From assembly GCA_019054805.1 (NCBI GenBank), contig JAHQIY010000001.1:10678501-10742500 (forward strand): a stretch of DNA of 64,000 bases, in the 5' to 3' direction. Below the pieces are notes generated by a model. The model saw only the letters and a program-made list of their open reading frames with translations, was not told where the DNA came from and ran no database searches. How positions within the stretch are numbered: the first letter of the stretch is position 1; each line of letters begins with the position of its first letter. A program made the position numbers and the translations under genes. Origin of the DNA: Brachionus manjavacas. Its lineage: Eukaryota > Rotifera > Eurotatoria > Ploima > Brachionidae. Shown in pieces: positions 5,901-64,000 of the stretch.

Positions 5901-8900
5901 GTTTATTAATTTTAATTATTACAAGATAGATAATATGTAAAATTTTGACTGGACTATTTATCACTAGATGGTATTCGTTTGAGTACTTATAAAACCCTAT
6001 TCGAAAAAAAAATTCAAATTGAATTAAGATTTTATTTAAAGGATGATTTTCTTGAAGGCGATTTCAAGATGGATATAGATTCAGAAATAGTTGAACTATT
6101 TGATCAAGATTTGGATTTGTTTCTCGAGCCTCTTCTAATTCCGGAAGTTCTCGATTTGACCAATAATTATTTTATTGATACATCGACACCAACCGATGGC
6201 TTGGTCGATTTTCGAATCAATGATTTTGTGTGTGTAGGCGAAAAAAAGTTTGGCTATGTGAGATTCAAGGGAAGAGTCCACTTTGCCGAAGGGCTATTCT
6301 GCGGCATTGAGCTGCTTGATCGGGACGGAAAGCACGATGGAAAAATAGACAATATCAGGTTTGTAAATTGAGTTTATTTATTGTTTTAAATATTTGCCCA
6401 AGAATTTTTTGCTTATTTTAAACAAACAAAATTAAGTAGTTACTCTGTGAAAAAAGCTTCGAGTTATCATCAAAATTTAATTGAGCAATAAATTCCATCT
6501 CTTTGGAAAGTTTTAAAATAATTTCCAATTCAAGTGTCCTGTTTTCGGGTGCCGCCAAAAATTAACCTAAAATTTTTCACAATAAAAATAAGGTGCTAAG
6601 TTTAGTAAAAATATTTTCTTTTCGACAAACAAAAAAGCATAATTTAAAAAGAAAAAAAGAATTCAAATTTAGTTTCAAATTATGCAATAAAAATTAGAAT
6701 GGTTACGAAGTATGCCACACGATTCTAGGCATTCCATTTAGTTTATTTATCTAAAATGTTCATTTGATCATAATTTATCTTCAATAAAATTTAATTAAGA
6801 TTTTTGTTCAAAAATTATTAGAGTAATAAACACTAATGACTACCCCAGGGCCGTACATGTAAAGACTGATCTTAGCAAAAGATTTCTGACTATCAAAATA
6901 TGGCTTAAGGATTTTTGGAATTGTGACAAATTACAGATGCCTTTTAAAAAATTATTTTATCATTTATTGGTGCCTGATAGTACTTATTTGGTCAACTAGG
7001 GATTAGTTGAATTATTCTGCTCTCGAACCAGCCAGGCATAAAAGTCAGCAATTAGTTTGCAAAAGGGGATTTTGTTGACAAAATTATCATTAGTGTCCAG
7101 AATTTAGTGAAATGAAAAAAAAGGTTTAAATTAAAAATTTCAACATAAACTTTAAAATTTGTTGGGCTTTTTTTAATCAAAAGCAATTATAACTCTATTT
7201 ATTTTTATTTTGAAAAATTTAGCTTGTATAAAATTTACATAGAAACAGTTTTTTTTGTTAAAAACTTTAAATTATTATTAGACAATTATCTGGAATTTGA
7301 ATTTTAATATGCTTCAAATTAGAGCTTACTGTAAAGTAAAATCGACACAACGCATATTTTAAAATGTTAATTTTTACGAATTAAAATGTAATCACTAATT
7401 TTTAAAGTTCAATTCGAAACATTTTTTCCATGAGAGAATTTCTTATGTTTTTTTTTCTTGAGTGAATAATGCCAATAAATGAGGATGATTCATGGTGGAT
7501 ACAATGTGAGCCCAATTTTTGGATTAAACTCGAGATTTTCAACTTGTCAAACAATCTAAAATCCATTTAGTTTGTGTTCAACAAGGTTTTACCAAAAATA
7601 GAAAAGGTTTAGACAATGAATTAATCTTAGCCAAAATGGCTAAAATTGGATTTCTTATGTAATTAAGAGCATAAATTTTGAAGCTTATTTTTGAATTCAA
7701 AATTTATTTCCAAGTGAGCTAAGATAACTGGTTAGGGACTTTGTTTTTCAAAAGAAAGGACTTGGTTTTTTTGGAAGAAATTTTGATCAAAAAAAGGAAA
7801 ATTTTGTGTTTTTTTTCAAATATTTTATTTGTTTTCTAATAAGAGCGTTTTGCTTGGTTTTATTTTCAAAGGTCGAATAATGTAAAAATCTAGGCGTGTT
7901 TCTAATAAAAAAAAGAAAGAAAATTTGAATGATTTTAAGATTTGAATAAAAAATAAAAATATGTAAAGCTCATCTGAATTTCTAGTTTTTTTCGTAAATA
8001 TTCTCATTGAAGTAATTAAATTTTTTTTTTTTAAATGGGTTAAAATTTTTTTATTACTCTTGATGTTTAAAATATAAATGTTAGATTGAATGATAGATGA
8101 TAAGCGTGAGGAATGTCTTTTTTGCAAATAGAATACTTTCTTATATTAAAAATGTTATTTTGTCCAGTCTATTAATACATTTTGCTAATTAATTTAGGTA
8201 TGTAATTTCTTTTACTAAAAAATTTCAATTTATTCTATGCATTTTTAATTGAATATTCAATTCGCTTTTTCAACAAGATAACGAATAATTAAATTTTCGC
8301 TCATTTAAATCAAGCTCAACAAGCCAAAAATCGCTTTTGTTTTAGAAATTATTTTTCCATTTAATTATTATATTCAATTTAAACAATTAGTCTTAATAGA
8401 AATCATATAGAAAAAGCATTTCATGAAAAATTGGTAACGACTCACTTGAATGAACCTAGAGGGCTGCTGACAAGGATAGAAAACAATTCACCAAAATCTT
8501 AACAACTCTAGCAATTAAAATTTATTAAATTTTATTATTTGTACAAATATTAAGGTTATATAATTTATTCTTTAGATAAGAAATAAAAAGCTTTTGGGCG
8601 TTGTGATTAACTTAAAGATTATTTATTTGCTTAGAACTCGCATTTAGACATTGTTCAAATCCGACAATTTGACCACCATAAAAGTTCCATAATTCGATTG
8701 CAATTAGTCAGTTGTTTGTGGCAAAAATGCCACAAGGCTTTGTTTAGCTCACAAATTATGTGAAACCATAGGTTGTCGAATTTTTTTTTTAGGTAAATAA
8801 ATTAATATTTGGATAGTCAATCGATTACCTTTTTATTTAAAGATTAGTTTATCTTTGAGCAATTTTTAAATCGCAGGCGTTTATTTGTTTGGCCAAATAG

Positions 8901-28025: not shown

Positions 28026-28469
28026 TTAAAAATATTCTGGTCGATTTTTAATTTCCGAAAAAATTCCTTTCTCGATAATATTCTTCAAATTTTCTTGTGA
28101 CTCATTTGTTTGATAATAAGTTTGTTCTAATAAACTGTTCGATACATTAAAACTTACAAAAACTTGCTTATTAAGTTTTTTGGAAATTCTAATTGATAGT
28201 TCTTTGCTCGAATTTTGTGAGTTGTTATTTTGATCATCGTTATTAAACATTATATCAATAGCTGTGGGATCCTTTTCGTATGGTGTCTTTACTGCACAAG
28301 AAAGACTTTCCATTTTTGCTTCCGAATCACCGATCCATACGTAAAGACATTTGTCAGAATACCGAATACAATGAAAATTTATATTAGGTAATCTTTGGGT
28401 CTCTGAATCTGCTTTCGTTCTATCTTTTAAAGACCATGAGTAAAAATTAATTTGGGATTGGTCAGTCAT
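28026..28469 (-). CDS. PSMG4: proteasome assembly chaperone 4
   Basis: Single-exon gene of 147 residues. In the family, PSMG4 (PAC4, yeast Poc4) pairs with PSMG3 in the cytosol and helps the proteasome alpha-ring assemble. The sequence keeps the family blocks FHCIRYSDKCLYVWIGD (matching the FHVMRL-D-LFLWVG region), LSIRISKKLNKQVFVSFN (matching LARKTNKQVFVSYN) and a C-terminal NRPEYF like EAFPEKF. It is slightly longer than the about 123-residue human protein because of an Asn/Ser-rich insertion near residue 80. The ATG is only 70 bp past the stop of NAA38 on the same strand and sits one base after a TTTTCAG acceptor, suggesting operon-type transcription with trans-splicing. Confidence 0.85.
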   Translation of the reverse strand: MTDQSQINFYSWSLKDRTKADSETQRLPNINFHCIRYSDKCLYVWIGDSEAKMESLSCAVKTPYEKDPTAIDIMFNNDDQNNNSQNSSKELSIRISKKLNKQVFVSFNVSNSLLEQTYYQTNESQENLKNIIEKGIFSEIKNRPEYF

Positions 28470-28470
28470 T

Positions 28471-28503
28471 CTGAAAATATTTTATCTATTATAAATATTT
28501 ATT
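28471..28503 (-). promoter_or_regulatory. intercistronic poly(A) signal and possible trans-splice acceptor
   Basis: Within the 70-bp gap between NAA38 and PSMG4 the minus strand has AATAAA (28498-28503), 36 nt after the NAA38 stop, then an A/T-rich tract ending TATTTTCAG (AG at 28472-28471), one base before the PSMG4 ATG. No room exists for a PSMG4 promoter plus 5' exon. This layout resembles intercistronic regions of SL trans-spliced operons. Confidence 0.5.
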
Positions 28504-33693: not shown

Positions 33694-35443
33694 TCACTTT
33701 TTATCACAGGGTTTATAATGAGCCAAGACAAACTCCTCAATTCGCTCACATGCTTCAACAATCTTTTCTTTCTTCATCGTAATTACTATACGAATATAGT
33801 TGGGACATTCGAATATCTAAAAAAAAAATTCCTTTTAAGCAAAATTCGTTCAAATCTCTGACTTACATTTGCCGGAAGACAAAAAACAGATTTTTCTCTT
33901 ATCAACATTTGAACAAACTCTAAATCCGTGGGGATATCCGGAAAACATTTGAGGTCCAGACCGACCATCATATACATGGCACCAGAAGGCTTTCTCGGGA
34001 TTAGTCCAGGCAATTTTTTTATTCTTTCATAGACAATCTCAGCATTGATCTTAAAAAAAAATTAAAAATTTCAAATAAAACTTAATTAAACAACAAATAC
34101 CGATAATATCTGCATTACACTGTCAAAGTAAGACTGGGGGGTTTTTTCCAATATCTCAACCACAGCTGCTTGAGCCAAACTATTCGGTCCAAGTATTCTG
34201 GTAGTTAAATCATTAAAACCAGCCCGGACTCCTAATAGCAAAAATTTAATCAAAACTTCACTTTACTTTTACTAAAATTACTTGCAAGATAATTCTTTGG
34301 ATCATGAATAGCGATCCATCCAAACCTCCATCCTGGCAAAATAAAGCGCTTGGAAAGAGCATTGCAGGACAATATGGGAACGCGTTTAGTCAACTCTGAC
34401 ATGTAGTAGAATTCATTGCCCGGAAATACCATGTCTCCATAGACTTCATCGGCTATTATCGGAAGTTTGTACCGCTCGGCAAGATCAATAATATCCAACA
34501 AATGCTCTCTGGAGTACACGCTACCACATGGATTGGATGGATTGTTGACAATAATGGCCTTTGTTCTCTCATCAATCAAACTTTCCAATTCTTCCAAATC
34601 AACTTCCCAATTAAATTCCTCCTTTTAAAATTGTAATCTCTCAGTAAAGTTCTAAAATAAATTTCAAGAAAATCGAACAGCTTACAAGTAAACTATAATA
34701 TTTAACATTAATACCAAGGGTTCCCGCGAGGGTCTTGTAAATTGAAAAGCCCGGCTTTGGAATGACAATGTTGTCACCGCGGTTTGCCAGAACTGTAATG
34801 CACAAGTCAATAGCCTGAGAACATCCATTAGTTAATAAAATATCAGTGAATTTGTAAATCAAATTATCTGGTCGAGAGTAATACTTAGCCACGGCCTGTC
34901 TGGCGGCCTCGGTTCCGTAAGACGGCGTGTAGCCATCGAATTTTTTGTCATTGATGCAAGCCTGGATTGCGGCGATGACCGAATCGGGCTTGCCGATCTC
35001 GCTGAATACCGTCGGATCTCCGATAGACAGCGCGATCATTTGGTAGTTCGGATTGGGCTCTATTTTCATCTGTTCGATGAGTTTGCGCACAGGGTTGCAT
35101 GTTGACTTGGCAAAGTCCGACACCTCCACATTCCAATCCGAGTCATTTTCACATTTTTCACTTAGAGTATACTTTTTTTGATTGTAAGAATTATATTTAA
35201 GCATGTTTACATGTTTATCCGATTTGAGAAATTCATTTGGTTTACCTTATAGAAAAATGATAGAGAAGAGAATTTTTTTTTTAGAGCGGCTTAGATGCCA
35301 AAAGAATTGGACTTGCTTGTTGGATTTTTTTTTTTTTATCATGCTTTGGAATAATATCAAAATCGCTTACTGAGCTCCTTTGAGTTATTGTTGGCGTCAA
35401 CAACAGGAACTGCGTTGGTCATAGCTTGGCGAATTTGGCTCAT
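33694..35443 (-). CDS. TAT: tyrosine aminotransferase
   Basis: Transfers the amino group of L-tyrosine to 2-oxoglutarate (PLP enzyme, first step of tyrosine breakdown, cytosol). Exons, minus strand: 35443-35371, 35245-34686, 34621-34282, 34231-34101, 34049-33867, 33816-33694. All are GT-AG and in phase, giving 469 residues against about 454 in human. Visible: WNVEVSDFAKSTCNPVRKL, the NNPSNPCGSVYS block, ADEVYGDM (PLP-ring Asp about 269), LSCNALSKRFILPGWRFGW with the PLP Lys at about 302, PSGAMYMMVGLDL, and the C-terminal FECPNYIRIVIT. The first exon (MSQIRQAMTNAV) is supported by splice phase only; its ATG is 10 bases after a CCTTTTCAG acceptor-like site, so the mRNA may be trans-spliced or have a 5' UTR intron. 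An ATG at 35204 would give a shorter form. Confidence 0.9.
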
Positions 35444-42693: not shown

Positions 42694-45600
42694 ATGAGCT
42701 ATCAAAACCGAGAATTTGGTGATATTAAAATAGGATTCTCTAATAATCCAGAAACAGAAGGTAAAAAGATTTTTTTTAGGCAAAAAAAAACTGAGTTTTA
42801 TTTTTAGCTTGTAGAGATAGTTACGTTGAATTTTTCGGTCTGACTAGAGTTCAAAGAGGCACTTTTTTAAACGAAGATATTCAACTCTCTGAACGCATAA
42901 TAAGCGATGTAGTCGCAATGGATGCTGGATTTGATTTATCCGATTTGCCTGATCTAAGTTTAGGCCAAAAAGATCTATTTGGTCAAGTTTTGAAACCGAA
43001 AAATTGTGAAAAATACGCAAATTTTCATACAATAGATTGGCTCCGAGATTTGCTGAAGGATAAATTCAGACACAAATGGATAAAAATGCTGAAAGAAAAG
43101 GGTAATTGGATGGATAAGATTCAAGCGTGGCATGATGCGTTTTCAGGATGGTTTTTGGTTCTACTTATAGGCTTAAGCTCAGGTAGAAATTATCATCATC
43201 ACAAGTTTTTGGGGAATTTTATTTATTGTATTTATTATAGGCATGGTTGCCGGAGTTGTGGATATTGGCAGTGGATGGATGTCAAACATAAAATCAGGAT
43301 TTTGTAAAAAAAGATTTTGGTTAAATCGAGAACAATGTTGTTGGAATTCTATGGACATTAATCACGATAAGTTTAGAAATCCATTTTGTGATGAGGTATT
43401 TATAAATTTGATCTGAACCTAGATATTTTTAATTCTATTATTAAGTGGGTTGTCTGGTCAAAAGAATTTGGAATTAATGACAAAACAACAGAATATTTTA
43501 CAAATATGATAATTTATATCTTGTATTCGTTTTCTTTTGGAACTCTGGCAGCAATTTTAGTGAAAGTTTTAGCTCCTTACGCATGTGGATCAGGAGTACC
43601 AGAGGTATTTTGTCAAATTATGAAAATTGCTTCTATTAATTTTAAACTAAAGATAAAAACAATATTGAGTGGTTTTGTAATTCGTGGATATTTAGGCAAG
43701 TGGACTTTGCTCGTAAAATCGATTGGTGTTATTTTAAGCAGTTCGGCTGGTCTTGCCTTGGGAAAAGAAGGACCCTTTGTTCATGTGGCCAGTTGTTGTG
43801 GAAATGTATTTTCCTATTTATTCCCTAAATATGGAAGAAACGAAGCCAAAAAAAGAGAAATCCTATCTGCTGCAGCTTCCGCGGGAGTTGCTGTAGCTTT
43901 TGGTAAATATTTTTTTTAAATTTCATAATTTTAAAATAATTAAGAAAACGCATTCTAAATTTTCATACAAACATTTCAAAAATTGCATAAATAAATTCAT
44001 TTTCATTTATTAAATTTCTTAAAATTGAACCTTTTAACACTTACAATAAATAATCCAAAATTCATTTGTTTATTAAAAATTACAATTTTGTATTGAATGT
44101 TTGTATAAAAAGTTAAATATCTTTAGAAAAGACCTTAAAAATTTTAGATCAAAATTTTTGATATTTCATTTCTTTAACTCTTTGAGATCATTATTTTTTT
44201 CAAAATTTCATTATTAATTTTTAAGTTGCTGAGACTTTCCTTAACAATTTATAATTAAAGTTTTTCTTGAGAAAATAATTTTTTTTAATATCAACCAAAA
44301 TTTTTAAAAATTAATTTTCAAGATTTTTTTAATTCATAACTATATCTTTTTATGATGATATTTAATTTCGGAAAGATAAATAGAATCGCTTAAGACTAAT
44401 AGAAATAAAATCATTTTAGTTTCATAGAAAAATATAGAATTTAATATAATTAATATTGTTAGTTTTATTATTTAAAATTATTCTATTGTAAATTTTCTAT
44501 GAATCTTTTGATTCTATGAAAAAAAATCTAGTATCAATAATAGAAAAAATTCAAACCATTTAACGAATTGGAAGAATTGAAAATCTTTTTAATCATATAA
44601 AAAAACTAAGCTTTTCTAATTTTGAAAATTTATAATTATTTTAGGTGCTCAGATTTTTTTTAATGGCAATATTTTGATTATTTTTTAAAATCTAATTTAG
44701 GTGCTCCGATCGGTGGAGTTTTGTTTAGTTTGGAAGAAGTTAGTTATTACTTTCCTTTAAAGACATTATGGAGATCATTTTTTTGTGCTATGGTTGCTGC
44801 CTTTGTAGTCCGTACAATTAATCCATATGGAAAAGGACACGATGTTCTTTTTTTTATTGAATATGTACCCGAATGGTCATTTTTCGAACTAATTCCATTC
44901 ATTATCTTAGGCATATTGGGAGTATATTTTTTTTGAAAATTTGATTTTGTTTTTTATGAAAACGAATTTAAAAGGGAGCATTTGGTATTATTTTCATAAG
45001 ATTGAACATTAAATGGTGTAAATTTAGAAAAAACAGTAAACTTGGAAAGTATCCCATAACTGAAGTAATATCTCAATTTGACTTTTAAATTTTTAGAATT
45101 CTAATTTTTTAAGGTGATTTTAATTACTTTATTAACTGCTACCCTGGGATATTTGAATGAATATACTCGAATGCCCATGCCTGAACTTATTCGTCATTTA
45201 ATTGCAAAATGTAGTATCATGGATGACTCTTTTTTATGGTAATGTAAATAATTCTCTAATAAAAAAATAATTAAATCTTATTCAGTGATTATGTTAAAAA
45301 TGTGACAAGTGCAAATGATGATGTAGTTCCTTTGAAACAAAATGAAGGAGTTTATGAAGCTATTTGGAAACTGTTTTTAGCTCTGATATTTTATATGGCT
45401 ATGCTGATATTAACTTTTGGTCTCAAGGTTCCATGCGGTCTTTTTGTGCCTAGTCTGACCATTGGAGCAATTACTGGTCGTTTGATTGGAATTTTCATGG
45501 AAATAATTTCATTGTAAACAATTCTCCAAAAAAATTTAAAATTAAATTTTTATCTAAAATTGAAAAGCAATTTTCCCAGTTTTTTTATTTTTGCCGCTGG

Positions 45601-48845: not shown

Positions 48846-49919
48846 TGGAGCATAGGGTCATTACTTTTGATTTCTACTCAAGTCGATCTTTTGCCTTTAC
48901 CCTTGCTTCTCCCCATGTCATTCCCATTTCAATGAGTTCTTTCGTGATTGTTGACGTCCATGTTACTGCTGGTCGTCCTACCTTACGTCGCCCTTGAGGT
49001 GTCCATTGAAGGGCTCTTTTTGGTATCCGTGTTTCTTTCATTCTAAGTACATGCCCGAGCCATATTTTGTTCTTAATGCATTGGCTTACTGGCTCTGAAT
49101 TTGTTTTTGTGTATAAGTCAGCGTTTGAAAATGTGTCAGGCCAGTGTATCCCGAGAATCCTCCGTAGGCTTCCCGTGTGGAAGGTGTTGAGACTTTTCCT
49201 GTCAGATTCACATATCCCCCAACATTCACTTCCGTACATCAGTGTTGCTTTTATTACACTGTTGTATAGTTTAAGTTTTGTTTCCTTGCTGTAGCTGGTT
49301 GACTTCCATACTGATTTGAGTCTTGCGAAGGCACTCTTTGCTTTACCAAGTCTATTTTTAATGTATTTGTGTGTTCCCAACGTTGTACTGATTGTGCTAC
49401 CTAGGTATGTGAATTCATTCACACACTCGATTGGTGTACCATCGATGGTGATCGGGGTATCCAATTTGGTTTTTATGCACATATGTTTTGGCCACATTTA
49501 TTTCGAGCCCGGTTGGTTTAGCGTTGTTCGCCAACTCTTGTGTCTTTATATACATATGTGCTTCTGTATTAGATATTAGCACCAGATCGTCCGCAAAGTC
49601 TAACTCTTCAAGCTTTGCTGTTAATCCCCATTGTATACCCCTCGCACTGGCAGTTGTTTTCTTCATGACATAGTCAATCAGTATTAGGAAAAGTGTCGGA
49701 GAGAGAACGCACCCTTGTCTGACTCCTGTACACACATTGAAGCTCTCAGATTGTCCTTTTTCCAGAATCACGTTACACTCGAATTTCTCATTGAAGAGTT
49801 TTATCAAGTTAGCCATCTTCTGTGGCAGGCCATAGGATCTTAATATGGCCCACAAGGATTCTCTGTGTAGTATTATGCTGTAGAACGCCTTGCTTGCTAT
49901 TGGTAACAGTGTTATTCCT
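48846..49919 (-). pseudogene. LINE reverse transcriptase with internal deletion
   Basis: Minus-strand LINE ORF2 fragment. In order: RGITLLPIASKAFYSIIL, HRESLWAILRSYGLPQKM, GVRQGCVLSPTLFLILID, LDFADDLVLIS (catalytic Asp pair), then after a frameshift near 49490 FTYLGSTIS, LKSVWKSTSYS, LMYGSECWG, RRILGIHWPD, GHVLRMKETRIPKRALQW and GRRKVGRPAVTW. The segment between AFYSIIL and HRESLW, which should contain the FKKAFDS catalytic motif, is gone. A TGG to TAG change follows DRLE. The 3' end is nearly identical to the copy at 57007-57345, so this family moved fairly recently. Confidence 0.85.
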
Positions 49920-50084
49920 CGCCAATAAAAAAATAAATGAATTATTTAAAAGTTAAAAAAGAATTTTCAATATTTTTTTCAAATTTTCAAATAAAAATTA
50001 AACTTTAAACATTCTATTAAACAAAAGAGTTTAATTTCAAATTAAAAGGCTTGCAGTATTCACTTGAAACTATTTTTTTTATTT

Positions 50085-50367: not shown

Positions 50368-52656
50368 CTAATTTAGTACAATCAATGATTGATTGGATTC
50401 ATTAATGTTAGTTTTACCGTAAACAATATGATCCTTCTTCATTATTATACCAATTGAATGGAACATGCAGTCTTTGGTGTTGGGCAAAAATTTTGTCAGT
50501 TCAATAACCTGGGCTTTAATTTTTGGGTCGAATCCATCTAGAAAATTTTTTTTTTAAATTTCAAGATTAAAAATAATCCCATTTACTTTCAAAGCAAACA
50601 CCCGAGTCATTTACTGCAGGTGAATACTCAAGGCGCTTCTCTTCAACTAAATTCTCGTGCAATGAAAAATCTATAAATATTCTCGTTATTAAGTGAGCCA
50701 ATTCTACAAAAAATATTTTAATTTAATTTAAAAAAATGTCCGAACAACGAACCGCTAAGTCCAAAGTCATCGATTATCACTCCATTTTCATGACTATACG
50801 ATAAACAATATCTTCTTACACAGGGATTTTTTTTGTTATAAGTCAAAATAGGAGTCATCAAGCCTCTTGGTTGCTTGTTTACAGCAAATGCATTTTCTTG
50901 GTCACCATTTTGTTCAGATTCATACGAAAATAAACTTAAGCCATTATTCAAAAAATATCCATCTTTCACAAATAATTGAGAACCCCAAGCACTGCCAAGA
51001 GTTCTAGAAAAAGTGAAAAATTTAAACTTAGGAATAGACTTTGTTAAATATTTTTACCCAATATATGATACCATTAAATCATTGTGGTCATTGACCGATA
51101 TAAAATTGGTAACTAAATTATCTTTAATTTTAACTTTATCCTCAAATGGGAAAAACGAGTCATTTCTGTTTTGCAAATATTGTTTTGCCAATCTTAAAAA
51201 AAATCAAAAAATTCTAGCTAAAAATAAAGACTTTTAGTTACTTAAGTTTTTCATTGAACAGCTCAGATTGATCTATGGCAAAGCGGGGATCAGAAATAGA
51301 AGATGAAAAAATGTAGCCCATTTTAGAAGCTTCAAGAATTTTGGCTAATGTTTCTGCAGATTTAATGTTGTCTAAATTTATTGATAAATCTGATAATGAA
51401 TCGATTATGAATTTCAAAGCAGGGCCAGCGCTTGGATAGGAAGCTGTTAGTAAGACAAAATCATTAAAGCTTGATGTCTCAATGGATTTTTTCTGCTCCG
51501 AATAAGAAATCAAATCATCATTCGTGATTTGGTAATCATCTTCCAAAAGAAAATTGACCAAATCTTTGCCTTTATCTCCATTATAAAAATTCGACTCTTT
51601 TTTTACCAAAGATTGAATAGTTCGTGCCAAATAAGGATTTTTGATTACGGCTCCCTCTTTGACCAGAACTCCTGTCTCATCTAAAAATATTTCTGCCAAG
51701 AACGAATCTTTTTTTTGAAGTATCACATCTTTTATGCTTTCTAAATGACGCGCTTGAATTTATTTTAATTAGTAAAATTTAAATTAAATTTTTTTTTAAT
51801 TTACCTAACAATTTTGACACTGAAAAGCCATCACGAGCTAGTTTGATAGCTGGTTCAGCGAGTGTATTCCAATATAACCTGGCGTAATTATGATAAACAT
51901 ATTGGAGACATTTTAATTCACCTGGAATAGCAACTGACTTTCGGCCAATATTCGGATTTTTTTCATAATCTTCTTCTTTTGCACTTGAGCTTGACTTAAA
52001 AAAGCAGTTTATTTCAACATCTTTTTCATGCTTGTGATCTCTGACCAGAAGAAAACCACCACTTAAAGTAAAAATAATTATATTTTAGCTTGGTTTTGAA
52101 TTTTTAAAAATACGCTCCAAGTCCGGCAGCAAATGGATTGACTACGCTGAGACACAAAGAACTAGATATAAATGCGTCTACACTGTTGCCACCTTTTTTT
52201 ACAATTTCTGCTCCTATTTCACTGCAAACTTTCTCCTGGGTAATTATTCCAACTCGGTTAGGAATTTGTGAAGGACCGACCAAAATCTGGATGATTAATG
52301 CAAAAGTAATGCTCACTGAAAACACTATTCCTCCAATAATAATCTGACGTAGTTCTTTTGAATTGTTAATGGCACTTAAATTTTCAAAATAATCAATTTT
52401 TTTCTAAAAAAGATCAGTCATATTTGTACCTGTCCGAAGCAAAGTATTTTGATTGTCGGATCGGGGCATTTTCAGAAAGATTCGAAGGATTTATTTCTAG
52501 AAAATCCGATTCATTGTTGTTTATTTTGGAAGCTTGGGGTATATCGTTAGAGTTTATGCCCATGTCCAAAGTGGCATCAAACGATAAATTATCTCTTCTA
52601 ATTGATGTATATTCGTTTAAGGTTTCAGTATCCTTTCCGTTTGTTTGAGATTCCAT
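50368..52656 (-). CDS. GGT7: GGT7-like gamma-glutamyltransferase homologue, probably not catalytic
   Basis: Single-pass (type II) membrane protein of the gamma-glutamyltranspeptidase fold. Exons, minus strand: 52656-52430, 52374-52114, 52061-51805, 51752-51242, 51192-51058, 51003-50753, 50703-50587, 50537-50368; 642 residues. A cytosolic tail of about 82 residues precedes the membrane anchor (IIIGGIVFSVSITFALIIQ) and a GPSQI segment like GGT7. EIVKKGGNSVDAFISSSLCL, AGLGAGGFLLVRDH and SYPSAGPALKFII are family blocks. The nucleophile-position Thr (LVTNFISV, about 447) remains. However, the substrate-binding Arg block (FRESAP type) reads NCFFKSSSS, the serine pair (RPLSSM type) reads PRGLMTP, and the Gly-Gly loop is replaced. 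Activity is therefore doubtful. The last three exons are the most divergent. Confidence 0.85.
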
Positions 52657-54723: not shown

Positions 54724-56564
54724 TTAAAAAAACAAGCTATACGGATATCCTTGATATTTTGATCTAAAAATGGACAAAATCATGCTGAAAAAGAAAACAA
54801 CCATGCCTGTTCCACCAATGACCAAGGCTAAAAATAAAAACTATTGAATAATAATTTCTTTTCAATTTCTTAAAAAACCAAAAATAACATCTACAAATCT
54901 CAAAATTAACGCTAACGTGGCTGAAAGGGAGAATTAATATTCATTCCAAACAGCCAAGGGATTTTGTCCCAAATTATTTTTTAAATAAATAAATAAATAA
55001 TTTCTTTTTAAAAATAAGAGGTATTAAATACAATATCAACAGAATGCTTTAGACAATATAATTAGATTCATTTCTGAATCACTTAGTACCTGTTGAAATT
55101 TTCAAATTATAACCTTTAGCTTAAATTTAAAAAAAAATTAAATCAAGAAAATCTTAAGATATAATTACATAATATAAATGTTTAATTTAAGCAATTACCT
55201 TTTTTTGTGTTTGCATCATTTAAATATTTCGGAACTTCATTTAAGAGTATCATACCAGCGACAATCGCACCATGTAAATAGGAGTTAAGGAAATTTACGG
55301 ATTTTTTCAAAGTGCAAATATTTAAACTCAAAAAGGATATAGATTGCAAAGACAATATATGTCTCAGCTATGAATTGGTATCCGTGACCACCGGCAAAAA
55401 AGCCCTTAAAGTTTATATTTTAATAAAATTTTGGTAAAACCAGCGCACAAAAGGATATAGATAAATAAGACGATAAGAGTTTCAGCAACTAATTGAAAAT
55501 CATTATCATCCGACATATACACCTATATCATGCATTCACCAATTGGCAAAAAAAAAATCTTAAATTATTTTGAGCAAAAAATTTCTTACGACTTGGCCAG
55601 TCTTTGGATTTCGGTATACCATTGGTGGACCTCGAATTTGATTCCACATTTGACCAGAAATAAAAATCAAAATGGCGCTCTAAGCAAAAAATTTATTTTT
55701 AATTTTAATTATTTAATAGAAATTACAATGACTATCATTGACCACGTGGTTTTGTTGTATAAAAATTCCAAATTGTTACGCTTTACGTATAAAAGACTGG
55801 CGATCATGGACACCAATAAAATTACTAAAAGCAGGCCAGAGTAGTTAGGAGGACGGAAAATTCTTATGCTTATGTCAGTTCGATCATTGATCCATTTTGC
55901 GATCTGTTCCGCTGAAAATCCGACTCTTAAAATAAAAATTGAAAAATTTATATTTAAATTTAAATATAAACCTAGAAATATCGAAATGATCTGCTGTCTT
56001 AGGCTTTCCTTGTTTGCGCCCGAACATTATAAACTGAGGAGCTGAAGCAGTATTTAGCTTTTTTTTAATTAAAATATTTAAATTAAAAAATTTATTTTTA
56101 TTTTACTAATTTAAAGACATCTGGAGCATCATCAAAGTCGACCATGGCGAAAAAAAGTTTATTCGAAAATTGAGGTGAGTATCTCCAAGATTGGGCAACT
56201 ATTTGAAATTCATCATTAGCTGGTCTGATTTAAAAACATGGTTATTTTTGAATATTTAGATAATTTTAAAGCTACCTGCAAATTTGACACTCACGATGCG
56301 ATGCTAGTGCAGTGAGCATGACAACAATCGAATAGTTTCTAGGTGCTGACTTAACAAAATGCTTAAATTTTTCAAAATTTAAACGAATGACGGGCTTTTT
56401 GAGGCTCCATTCAGTCAGTTGTTCAATTTTTTCGCTCAATGCATCCTAAAAATAAGCTATAATTTTTCTAGAAAATTTTTCAAAAAAGTTACGCTATCAA
56501 CTTGACAGGTACTGAATTGGACTAGAACAATCAGGTTGAAAATGACAAATAGACTTGGTCTCAT
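54724..56564 (-). CDS. TUSC3: oligosaccharyltransferase subunit OST3/OST6 (TUSC3/MAGT1 type)
   Basis: Thioredoxin-like, ER-membrane subunit that assists N-glycosylation of Cys-containing sites. Exons, minus strand: 56564-56493, 56445-56276, 56224-56107, 56057-55972, 55925-55727, 55679-55590, then either 7a (55522-55459) or 7b (55404-55341), then 55273-55199 and 54827-54724; 325 residues with either exon 7. Visible: signal peptide, [35 protein letters not shown] with the CQIC redox motif (Cys77, Cys80), [25 protein letters not shown] before the first membrane segment, [22 protein letters not shown], and the C-terminal [11 protein letters not shown]. Four membrane segments are expected. Intron 7 is a U12-type AT-AC intron; all others are GT-AG. 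Whether it is closer to TUSC3 or MAGT1 is not decided. Confidence 0.9.
55274..55292 (-). promoter_or_regulatory. U12-type branch point and AC 3' splice site
   Basis: On the minus strand TTCCTTAAC (55292-55284), the exact minor-spliceosome branch consensus, is followed 10 nt later by an AC acceptor (55275-55274) and then exon 8. No AG exists at the position the protein alignment needs. Distance and sequence fit U12 introns. Confidence 0.85.
55341..55404 (-). other. alternative exon 7b of the OST3/TUSC3 gene
   Basis: A 64-nt coding exon with a U2-type TTTAAG acceptor on its 5' side and a U12-type ATATCCTTTT donor on its 3' side. It encodes [19 protein letters not shown] plus AI and the first base of Tyr. 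Reading phase and length match family members (SYIHG-QFVAES block). Confidence 0.85.
55459..55522 (-). other. alternative exon 7a of the OST3/TUSC3 gene
   Basis: A 64-nt coding exon of the same length, phase and splice-site types as 7b. It encodes [19 protein letters not shown] plus FI. It has a GATATAG U2-type acceptor and the same ATATCCTTTT U12-type donor. It differs from 7b mainly in the luminal loop (acidic versus Gly-rich). Confidence 0.85.
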
Positions 56565-57006
56565 ATTGTGCCCGATCTAGGTAAGTTTTTATAAAATTTG
56601 AAAATTTTATTTCTTTTTAAGTTTGGATTTTAAGTCAAATTTAATGTGTATAGACCTTTAACAAAAAAAATTCAATTATGAATCTACCACGTATATATTT
56701 TTTGAAAATCAAGCATTCGAACTGATTTTTGTCTTTTTTTACTTTATTTTATTTAGTTTTTAAATCAATAAATTATGAAGGTTTTAGGATACAAGGGAAG
56801 AAATAATAGCAAATTTAACTCTACTTTGGTATCTCTTCCACAAAATTTTTCAAAGACATCTCTGACATATTTGAAAATAATTTTTTGAATTAAAAAACAA
56901 TCATTACACATAAACAGATAAAAATATGAATAAAAGCCTTTTTGGAATTTTTATTTTATCAATTTTCTTTTTTAAATCTTGTCAATATGGCTTTGAATCA
57001 ATAATG
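56565..57006. other. intergenic, upstream of the OST3 gene
   Basis: AT-rich. The minus strand has an AG-type acceptor-like site 16 bases before the OST3 ATG. Right end is the target site of the truncated LINE. Confidence 0.35.
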
Positions 57007-57362
57007 AAAGCCTGCGGAGGATTCTCGGGATACACTGTCTTGACACATTTTCAAATGCTGACTTATACACAAAAACAAATTCAGAGCAAGTAAGCCAATG
57101 CATTAAGAACAAAATTTGGCTCGGGCATGTACTTAGAATGAAAGAAACACGGATACCAAAAAGAGCCCTTCAATGGACACCTCAAGGGCGACGTAAGATA
57201 GGACGACCAGCAGTAACATGGAGGTCAACAATCACGAAAGAGCTCATCGAAATGGCAATGACATGGGGAGAAGCAAGGGTAAAGGCAAAAGATCGACTTG
57301 AGTGGAAATCAAAAGTAATGACCCTATGCTCCACAAGGAGTGAATAAGGAAAAAAAAAGAAA
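57007..57362 (+). mobile_element. 5'-truncated LINE insertion
   Basis: The segment starts in the middle of the reverse-transcriptase C-terminus (CGGAGGATTCTCGGGATAC, encoding the RRILG block) and continues to MTLCSTRSE and a stop at 57347, then an A-rich tail. AATAATG precedes it (57000-57006) and follows the tail (57363-57369), a probable target-site duplication. It closely matches the 3' part of the element at 48846-49919 in opposite orientation. Confidence 0.8.
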
Positions 57363-62898: not shown

Positions 62899-64000
62899 TT
62901 AAGCATGAGTAATACTTGGTTTAGATATTAAAGTTGCGTCTAATTGTTCCAAATTTGGCAATGTAAATATTATTTTTCTTCTATAATCAGGATTAAATTT
63001 TTGATTGTCATTCAATGTTCCGATCGATGTCGGCTTAGCATTATTGATATAAAAAATTGGATTATGCTCCAAATAAAGACATTTGAGCTTTGACAATGAA
63101 CGCAAATGCTCAATATCTGTCCATTTTGATAAATTGTTTCCATTAAACCAAAGTTCTTGTAATTCTCTAAGTCCTTCAGCATTCTCAATGTTCTCGATCA
63201 TGTTCAGAGATAAATCAAGCACTTTCAAATTAAACAGATTGTTAAAACCTTCCATTTTTGTCAGACCGTTCTCACTCAGATACAGCTCCTCCAAATTGGT
63301 CAATGAATCGAGATTCTCGATTTTTGTAATTCTATTCGATTGAAGACTTAAAATTTTCAAATTTGGTAGATCTAAATTTTCAATCCTACGGATTTTATTT
63401 TTACCCAAGTACCTTTAGATAATTTTGATAAATTTTTATTTTTTTTGTTTCAAATAAACTAAATTACAATTGAGTTAGATTTTTGAGAGTGGATAAATTT
63501 TCAAGTACTCTTAATTGGTTGTCGCCAAGTTCGAGCAGTTCCAATTTTGTCAAGCATTCCAAGTTTTCAATTCTACCAAACTGATTATGAACCAAAAATA
63601 ACTTTTTAAGCTCAACTAGTTCATTAAGGTTCTCAATTTTTGAAAGCCGATTAAAAGAAAGATCAAGTAGTTCCAGTGTTTTAAATTGTTGCAAATTTTC
63701 TATTTTCTCAATTTGATTATCATAGAAATCGAGTTCTTTTACGGCGTTTAGGCCTTTGTTTACGTCTAAATTCGCGTCTAGAAATGTCTTGAGCAGATTT
63801 CCACGAAAACAAATTGATTTTAGATTTTTGAATTTAGAAAAATCATTGATTTGCTTTAAACGTGTCATGCTAAGATCGATAGATTCGGTGTCATCCGGAT
63901 AAATAGTCAAGTCAACTTGGTCTGCATATGAATAATAAATGATTTGTTGATCTAATTTGTTTTTTTTTTCTTCATTAGTCAACTCGACCACTTCCTTATC
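62899..64000 (-). CDS. PPP1R7: protein phosphatase 1 regulatory subunit 7 (SDS22), 5' end cut off
   Basis: SDS22 is a leucine-rich-repeat protein that binds the PP1 catalytic subunit in nucleus and cytoplasm. Exons in the window, minus strand: 64000 (open) to 63468, then 63412-62899, with a 55-nt GT-AG intron. The frame stays open to the window edge, so the start is outside or at the very border. Repeats follow the 22-residue SDS22 pattern LxxLxxLxLxxNxIxKIENL, for example LELLDLSFNRLSKIENL, LKILSLQSNRITKIENL and LKVLDLSLNMIENIEN; about a dozen are visible. The C-terminal cap reads YLEHNPIFYI, NPDYRRKIIFTLPNLEQLDA, matching YLERNPL-DPQYRRKVMLALPSVRQIDA. It ends in KPSITHA. Confidence 0.9.

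Follow-up and report, generated by a model that had tools for sequence, protein, structure and literature searches.

A pair of homologous exons in an OST3/MAGT1-type gene predicted to be mutually exclusive through U2/U12 spliceosome incompatibility

The choice between two alternative exons can be imposed by the inability of major (U2) and minor (U12) splice sites to pair with each other, and staggered signals of the two types giving mutually exclusive exons have been described in a review of minor introns (PMC6865273). In MAPK8 and MAPK9 (JNK), a pair of U2-type 3' splice sites is interlocked with a pair of U12-type 5' splice sites around exons 6a and 6b, named 7a and 7b in later assemblies (PMC8329584, PMC3584512). 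In TMEM87A and TMEM87B, a U2 acceptor is embedded in a U12 intron at exons 11 and 11a (PMC6717393, PMC8329584), and for Tmem87b two 72-bp exons, chosen in a tissue-specific manner and never joined to each other in reads, have been reported (PMC6717393). A genome-wide human survey assigned five mutually exclusive clusters (0.79%) to U2/U12 incompatibility (PMC5740500), and an invertebrate form of U2/U12 mutual exclusion is known from the prospero and dUrp twintrons of Drosophila (PMC3584512). Here, we describe a 64,000-nucleotide (nt) stretch of Brachionus manjavacas DNA (contig JAHQIY010000001.1), called the window hereafter, whose minus strand carries a gene of the OST3/TUSC3/MAGT1 type, coding for a subunit of the oligosaccharyltransferase (OST). 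Its exon 7 exists in two versions, 7a and 7b, which very probably form a mutually exclusive pair enforced by U2/U12 incompatibility together with the reading frame.

The locus shares with MAPK8/9 the interlocked order of a pair of U2 3' sites and a pair of U12 5' sites, flanked by a single U2 5' site and a single U12 3' site, and with TMEM87A/B the U2 acceptor lying inside a U12 intron; the human clusters belong to the same class of mechanism. However, MAPK8/9 are vertebrate kinase genes for which tissue-specific use has been shown, and TMEM87A/B are again different genes, with RNA evidence, whereas the gene described here encodes an OST subunit and has very short introns. The prospero and dUrp cases differ in consisting of overlapping U12 and U2 introns, while the present competition is between a pair of homologous exons, each with one site of either type. 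A likeness of another kind exists with yeast Ost3/Ost6 and vertebrate MAGT1/TUSC3, which are mutually exclusive alternatives for one and the same OST subunit (PMC8191290). Those pairs result from gene duplication and differ over whole subunits, whereas the present case is an exon duplication that affects 21 residues outside the thioredoxin domain. A preliminary description of this DNA had remarked that the mechanism is known from other genes, and the published MAPK8/9 and TMEM87A/B cases bear this out (PMC8329584). Neither MAGT1 nor TUSC3 is named in the main text of the human survey, as distinct from its appendix (PMC5740500), nor are they mentioned in the available text of PMC2831892, and we found no report of a U2/U12 exon lock in OST3, TUSC3 or MAGT1 in a literature search whose scope left out supplementary tables and most subscription papers. 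The architecture is thus an already published one, and the OST3/MAGT1-type gene looks like a new user of it; what sets it apart from the known cases is the gene itself, its compactness and probably the lineage.

The whole exon switch spans 316 nt (55589-55274, minus strand; Table 1). Exons 7a and 7b are adjacent, homologous and equal in length and phase, as mutually exclusive exons are, and on re-reading the DNA their coordinates, 64-nt lengths and common phase were exactly as first reported. The same holds for the splice signals: a U2-type AG acceptor precedes each exon (ending ...GATATAG ahead of 7a and ...CTTTAAG ahead of 7b), an identical ATATCCTTTT follows each of them, and a single AC acceptor preceded by TTCCTTAAC serves both. 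The consensus of U12 AT-AC introns consists of the 5' splice site ATATCCTT and the branch site TTCCTTAAC, located about 10-15 nt before the AC end. Both donors match ATATCCTT exactly, and exon 8 starts at 55273 directly after TTCCTTAACTCCTATTTAC, which contains an exact U12 branch site whose branch A lies 11 or 12 nt from the AC end of the intron. The homology of the two peptides, which share the AET-IV motif pointed out in the preliminary description, was borne out by comparison with the other 21-residue stretches of the window that lack a stop, overlapping ones counted: 7a and 7b are identical at 7 of 21 residues and reach a BLOSUM62 score of 33, while the best of the 27785 other stretches scores 27. 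Against human MAGT1, 7a and 7b score 34 and 39, and the best other stretch in the same set reaches 28.

In the mechanism that we propose, the U2 donor of exon 6 would pair with the U2 acceptor of either 7a or 7b, and the AT donor of the chosen exon with the single AC acceptor of exon 8. Splicing 7a onto 7b would be barred, as it would bring a U12 donor to a U2 acceptor; so would the skipping of exon 7, in which exon 6 with its U2 donor would have to use the U12 acceptor ahead of exon 8. A third product, made with the acceptor of 7a and the donor of 7b and keeping 7a, the 54 nt between them and 7b, would be allowed by the incompatibility but would shift the frame and run into a stop. The original claim that exactly one exon must be used therefore holds as far as intact protein is concerned, but incompatibility by itself accounts only for joining and skipping; the retention product is disposed of by the frame, so that the lock would consist of incompatibility plus frame. 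Indeed, a premature stop was found in all six products other than the two isoforms (exon 7 skipped, both exons joined, gap retained and three intron-retaining forms, that of the last intron included). As U12 introns can end in AG, the gap ahead of 7b had to be checked for a branch site: its best candidate, TTTATTAAA, has 3 mismatches and lies 15 nt from the AG, and AT-AG combinations have been described as disfavoured (PMC3584512). A U12 intron from 7a to 7b ending in AG was rejected for want of a good branch site, this being an argument of improbability rather than of impossibility. Steric hindrance was also considered as a cause of exclusivity and rejected; at 54 nt, the gap equals or exceeds the usual introns of the gene in length (46-51 nt) and thus leaves room for a U2 intron, which makes this explanation unneeded.

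U2/U12 exon definition, acting over each exon, would govern the choice, and the pairing of a U2 acceptor with a U12 donor over the same exon is likely to be what brings the two spliceosomes into agreement. Contacts of this kind between U2 and U12 components have been reviewed, together with the tendency of short introns towards recognition at the level of the intron (PMC8329584). Since short introns are usually recognised in that manner, intron definition is also possible for exon 7. The minor spliceosome is said to have been lost in nematodes, myxozoa, oikopleurids and tardigrades (PMC10639083), and membership in such a lineage would clash with the finding of U12 introns.

We then compared the U12 signals with chance expectation. 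Single motifs are not rare: the window contains 3 copies of ATATCCTTTT (0.75 expected), 9 of RTATCCTT (5.1 expected) and 5 of TTCCTTRAY (5.56 expected). In contrast, complete U12 introns, defined by an exact donor, a branch site with at most one mismatch and an AC or AG at the proper distance, are found exactly twice in the 64 kb, both times at exon 7. The mean in random first-order sequences was 0.12, and none of 60 such sequences reached two. Three looser settings added a single hit, on the opposite strand (54745-54888), and the third ATATCCTTTT of the window (47582-47573, minus strand) gave no full U12 intron even under these settings. Moreover, 2260 splice models were enumerated and scored against the C-terminal part of MAGT1. 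Among them, 1681 used U2 sites only (up to two introns, with a minimum length of 40 nt each) and 579 used either U12 donor with the AC acceptor. The two predicted isoforms ranked first and second (scores of 276 and 271), followed by a U12-type model with a very short extra exon (268), while the top U2-only model reached 243. No Rfam family was matched at its gathering score within the window.

Table 1. Coordinates of the OST3/MAGT1-type gene, of the signals around exon 7 and of neighbouring genes in the window
Feature	Position	Strand	Remarks
OST3/TUSC3/MAGT1-type gene, ATG to stop	54724..56564	-	Pfam PF04756 over the whole profile; human MAGT1 match
Coding exons 1-6	56564-56493, 56445-56276, 56224-56107, 56057-55972, 55925-55727, 55679-55590	-	
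Coding exons after exon 6	7a or 7b, 55273-55199, 54827-54724	-	
Exon 6	55590..55679	-	Ends in phase 0; U2-type donor GTAAGAAATT
Intron 6, U2-type, short form to 7a	55523..55589	-	67 nt, GT-AG
Exon 7a	55459..55522	-	64 nt, 21 residues + 1 nt; acidic loop version
U12-type 5' splice site of 7a	55449..55458	-	ATATCCTTTT
Gap between 7a and 7b	55405..55458	-	54 nt; U12 donor at start, U2 acceptor at end
Exon 7b	55341..55404	-	64 nt, 21 residues + 1 nt; Gly-rich loop version, nearer the family profile
U12-type 5' splice site of 7b	55331..55340	-	ATATCCTTTT
U12-type branch site	55284..55292	-	TTCCTTAAC; common to both donors
AC 3' end of the shared U12-type intron	55274..55275	-	185 nt from 7a, 67 nt from 7b
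Exon 8	55199..55273	-	Rest of third membrane helix and following loop (MAGT1 alignment)
Putative RNA hairpin around 7a	55445..55533	-	Acceptor GAUAUAG paired with U12 donor CUAUAUC; weak evidence
CAP-Gly protein	5949-6368	+	Pfam match of open reading frame (ORF) pieces
Proteasome assembly chaperone 4	28029-28481	-	Pfam match of ORF pieces
Class I/II aminotransferase	34253-35246	-	Pfam match of ORF pieces
Voltage-gated chloride channel	42795-45514	+	Pfam match of ORF pieces
Gamma-glutamyltranspeptidase	51241-52403	-	Pfam match of ORF pieces
Leucine-rich-repeat protein	62902-64000	-	Pfam match of ORF pieces

The gene is complete, with nine coding exons per message, an ATG at 56564 and a TAA ending at 54724; this span runs from ATG to stop, the untranslated regions (UTRs) not being delimited. 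Both spliced frames are open to residue 325, so that a product of 325 amino acids is predicted with either exon. Pfam OST3_OST6 (PF04756) is the sole family matched, over profile positions 1-294 of 294, with 313.6 bits for the 7a product and 321.9 bits for the 7b product (cut-off, 27 bits), which bears out the OST3/TUSC3 identity first assigned to the gene; in a hand-made in-frame control protein devoid of exon 7, the score falls to 267.8 bits. The best relative of solved structure is human MAGT1 in the OST-B complex (PDB 6s7t_H; 372.1 bits with 7a and 374.9 bits with 7b), to which the exon 7 region of both isoforms aligns without gaps, in agreement with the gapless family alignment announced for either choice. 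The protein is far nearer to MAGT1 than to the yeast proteins. Replacing 7a by 7b brings little gain against Ost3 (68.0 versus 68.8 bits) and about ten bits against Ost6 (51.4 versus 62.0 bits); by eye, the Gly-rich loop of 7b resembles the Ost6 loop. The architecture is that of the family, an N-terminal thioredoxin-like domain with a CxxC motif followed by four membrane helices. After a hydrophobic, signal-peptide-like start, CQIC is found at residues 77-80 in the thioredoxin-like domain, which was aligned to TUSC3 (4m8g), and hydropathy reveals, the signal peptide aside, three helix cores with values exceeding 1.6; the second membrane helix stays below this threshold, yet its region aligns to MAGT1 without gaps. 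The sequence has a G+C content of 27%, and introns 1-5 are of the GT-AG type and of 46-51 nt each, which may hint at a compact invertebrate genome, though this is no more than a guess. The last intron (55198-54828, minus strand) is far longer, with 371 nt. An AG (ACTTACCTAG) stands at 56586-56577 (minus strand), 12 nt ahead of the start codon, and could be the end of a 5'-UTR intron or a trans-splice acceptor.

To the splice signals and the two intact products, both readable in the DNA, are added signs of constraint on each exon. Between 7a and 7b, 16 of 22 first, 13 of 21 second and 8 of 21 third codon positions are identical, the last value being indistinguishable from the 0.30 expected by chance (p 0.29). 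The NG86 method gave a nonsynonymous divergence of 0.49 and a synonymous divergence of 1.86, estimates to be read with care as they come from only 21 codons. The U12 donor decamers are identical at 10 of 10 positions, whereas the intron flanks have diverged (15/40 identities in the bases following the donor, 9/38 in those preceding the acceptor AG). Finally, 7a and 7b are about equally close to human MAGT1 (9/21 and 8/21 identities). The duplication thus looks old, with neutral sites near saturation and with the coding sense and the U12 donor apparently kept in both copies. This conservation amid diverged flanks and third positions argues that both exons are used, presumably in cells, and the pattern of divergence speaks against an assembly artefact made of two recent copies. 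We infer that 7b is nearer to the ancestral kind and that 7a is the more changed version. None of the pattern matches in viral contigs (one) or in prokaryote genome contigs (eight) was a relative, neither collection being meant for animals.

Several observations weigh against a U2/U12 lock with two functional exons. The acceptor of 7a (GCATGATATAG) has a poor pyrimidine tract, and single U12 motifs are not rare in such an AT-rich sequence. In addition, the contrast between codon positions 1 and 2 (29/43 identities) and position 3 is modest (Fisher one-sided p 0.025), because exon 7 is short, and a second estimate of the ratio of nonsynonymous to synonymous divergence (LWL85) failed.

Among the other explanations, the one that survives best, although we consider it rather unlikely, is that competing RNA structure sets the choice of exon, a hairpin masking both the acceptor and the donor of 7a. 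It would supplement the U2/U12 lock with a regulator more than take its place, so that its likelihood overlaps with that of the lock. In this scheme the 7a acceptor may also pair with the 7b donor, which is identical to that of 7a. The hairpin has a predicted energy of -25.5 kcal/mol (z -2.65; 1 of 200 shuffled sequences was as stable), and the 316-nt region as a whole has a z of -2.91 (0 of 100 shuffles as stable), in part through this hairpin; the segment over 7b has a z of -1.92. Synonymous recodings of 7a were as stable as the native sequence in 12 of 500 cases, a figure that counts both for and against the hairpin. However, the limits of the hairpin were picked after the fold had been seen, and when the gene was scanned in 47 sliding windows, z was only about -1.2 in the two that lie over 7a, both of which truncate the hairpin, while -2.79 is reached elsewhere in the gene. 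The acceptor-donor duplexes (-13.1 for 7a and -10.8 for 7b) are not extreme either when set against 239 overlapping background windows of the gene, of which 2, from one site at -17, are at or below the 7a value and 14 at or below the 7b value. We regard the RNA structure as a lead, no more.

It is improbable that only 7b is used and that 7a is a decaying relic of the exon duplication. Such a reading would account for the better family fit of 7b, seen in the Pfam and Ost6 scores given above, and for the weak pyrimidine tract of the 7a acceptor, which may moreover lie in the hairpin. However, 7a is as near as 7b to MAGT1 in identity, it is open, and it has kept its phase and a perfect U12 donor despite near-chance third positions and diverged flanks, whereas a relic of such an age should have lost frame, phase and donor. 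Still less probable is a locus acting mainly as an expression switch, in which mismatched splice choices lead to premature stops and unproductive splicing outweighs the making of two proteins: the early stops in all six other splice forms tried fit this idea, but both productive exons bear signs of constraint at the protein level that a pure on/off switch would not need. Last, we give almost no credit to a U2 route joining exon 7 to exon 8 with coincidental AT-AC signals, given that single U12 motifs do arise by chance in this sequence but the full combination is not expected to, and that the best of the 1681 U2-only models (243) falls well short of both U12 isoforms (276 and 271).

If both exons are used, the choice concerns residues 246-266 of the protein, corresponding by MAGT1 alignment and hydropathy to the last stretch of the loop that leads into the third membrane helix and to the first part of this helix, within which the U12 intron lies in phase 1. 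The loop, which we take to be luminal from the topology of the family, differs between 7a and 7b over 10 residues and is followed by a common (L/F)(V/I)AET-IV. The swap of an acidic for a Gly-rich loop announced in the preliminary description was found as such: 7a has four acidic residues, 7b has one, and neither has a basic residue. Inspection by eye of the acidic loop in 7a for a likeness to an EF-hand led to this idea being set aside, as the loop does not fit the motif. According to a review, Stt3 is in contact with three of the four Ost3 helices, and helices 3 and 4 lie packed on the Sec61 complex (PMC7226087); modulation of STT3 turnover has been proposed as a role of the C-terminal membrane part of Ost3/6 (PMC8191290). 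In view of these contacts and of this proposal, the exchange of the loop and of the first part of the helix would most likely alter the contact of the subunit with STT3 or with the translocon.

In the neighbourhood of the gene, fragments of ORFs resembling the reverse transcriptase of non-long-terminal-repeat retrotransposons were recognised by eye from their translations at 48877-49945 (minus strand) and 56997-57344 (plus strand). The latter lies directly upstream of the OST3-type gene and repeats part of the former. Two adjacent palindromes, at 58439-58377 (by eye) and at 58365-58311 (perfect, 27/27 positions), are possibly the ends of mobile elements.

Few genes have an exon choice locked by the two spliceosomes, and the duplicated-exon cases found in the literature, MAPK8/9 and TMEM87A/B, are from vertebrates; a compact, 316-nt example from outside the vertebrates would be a handy model for the way in which U2 and U12 components agree on one exon. 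We can also imagine, tentatively and with more doubt than confidence, that in this lineage one OST3 gene stands in for the gene pairs Ost3/Ost6 of yeast and MAGT1/TUSC3 of vertebrates, the two spliceosomes choosing the loop and third-helix module and the activity of the minor spliceosome, perhaps biased by the hairpin, setting the kind of OST in each tissue. The exon pair would also be a splicing-made set of versions of an OST subunit that gene duplication supplies elsewhere. It points to the loop and the third membrane helix as the portion in which variation is useful, which fits the proposal that this region of the subunit modulates STT3 (PMC8191290).
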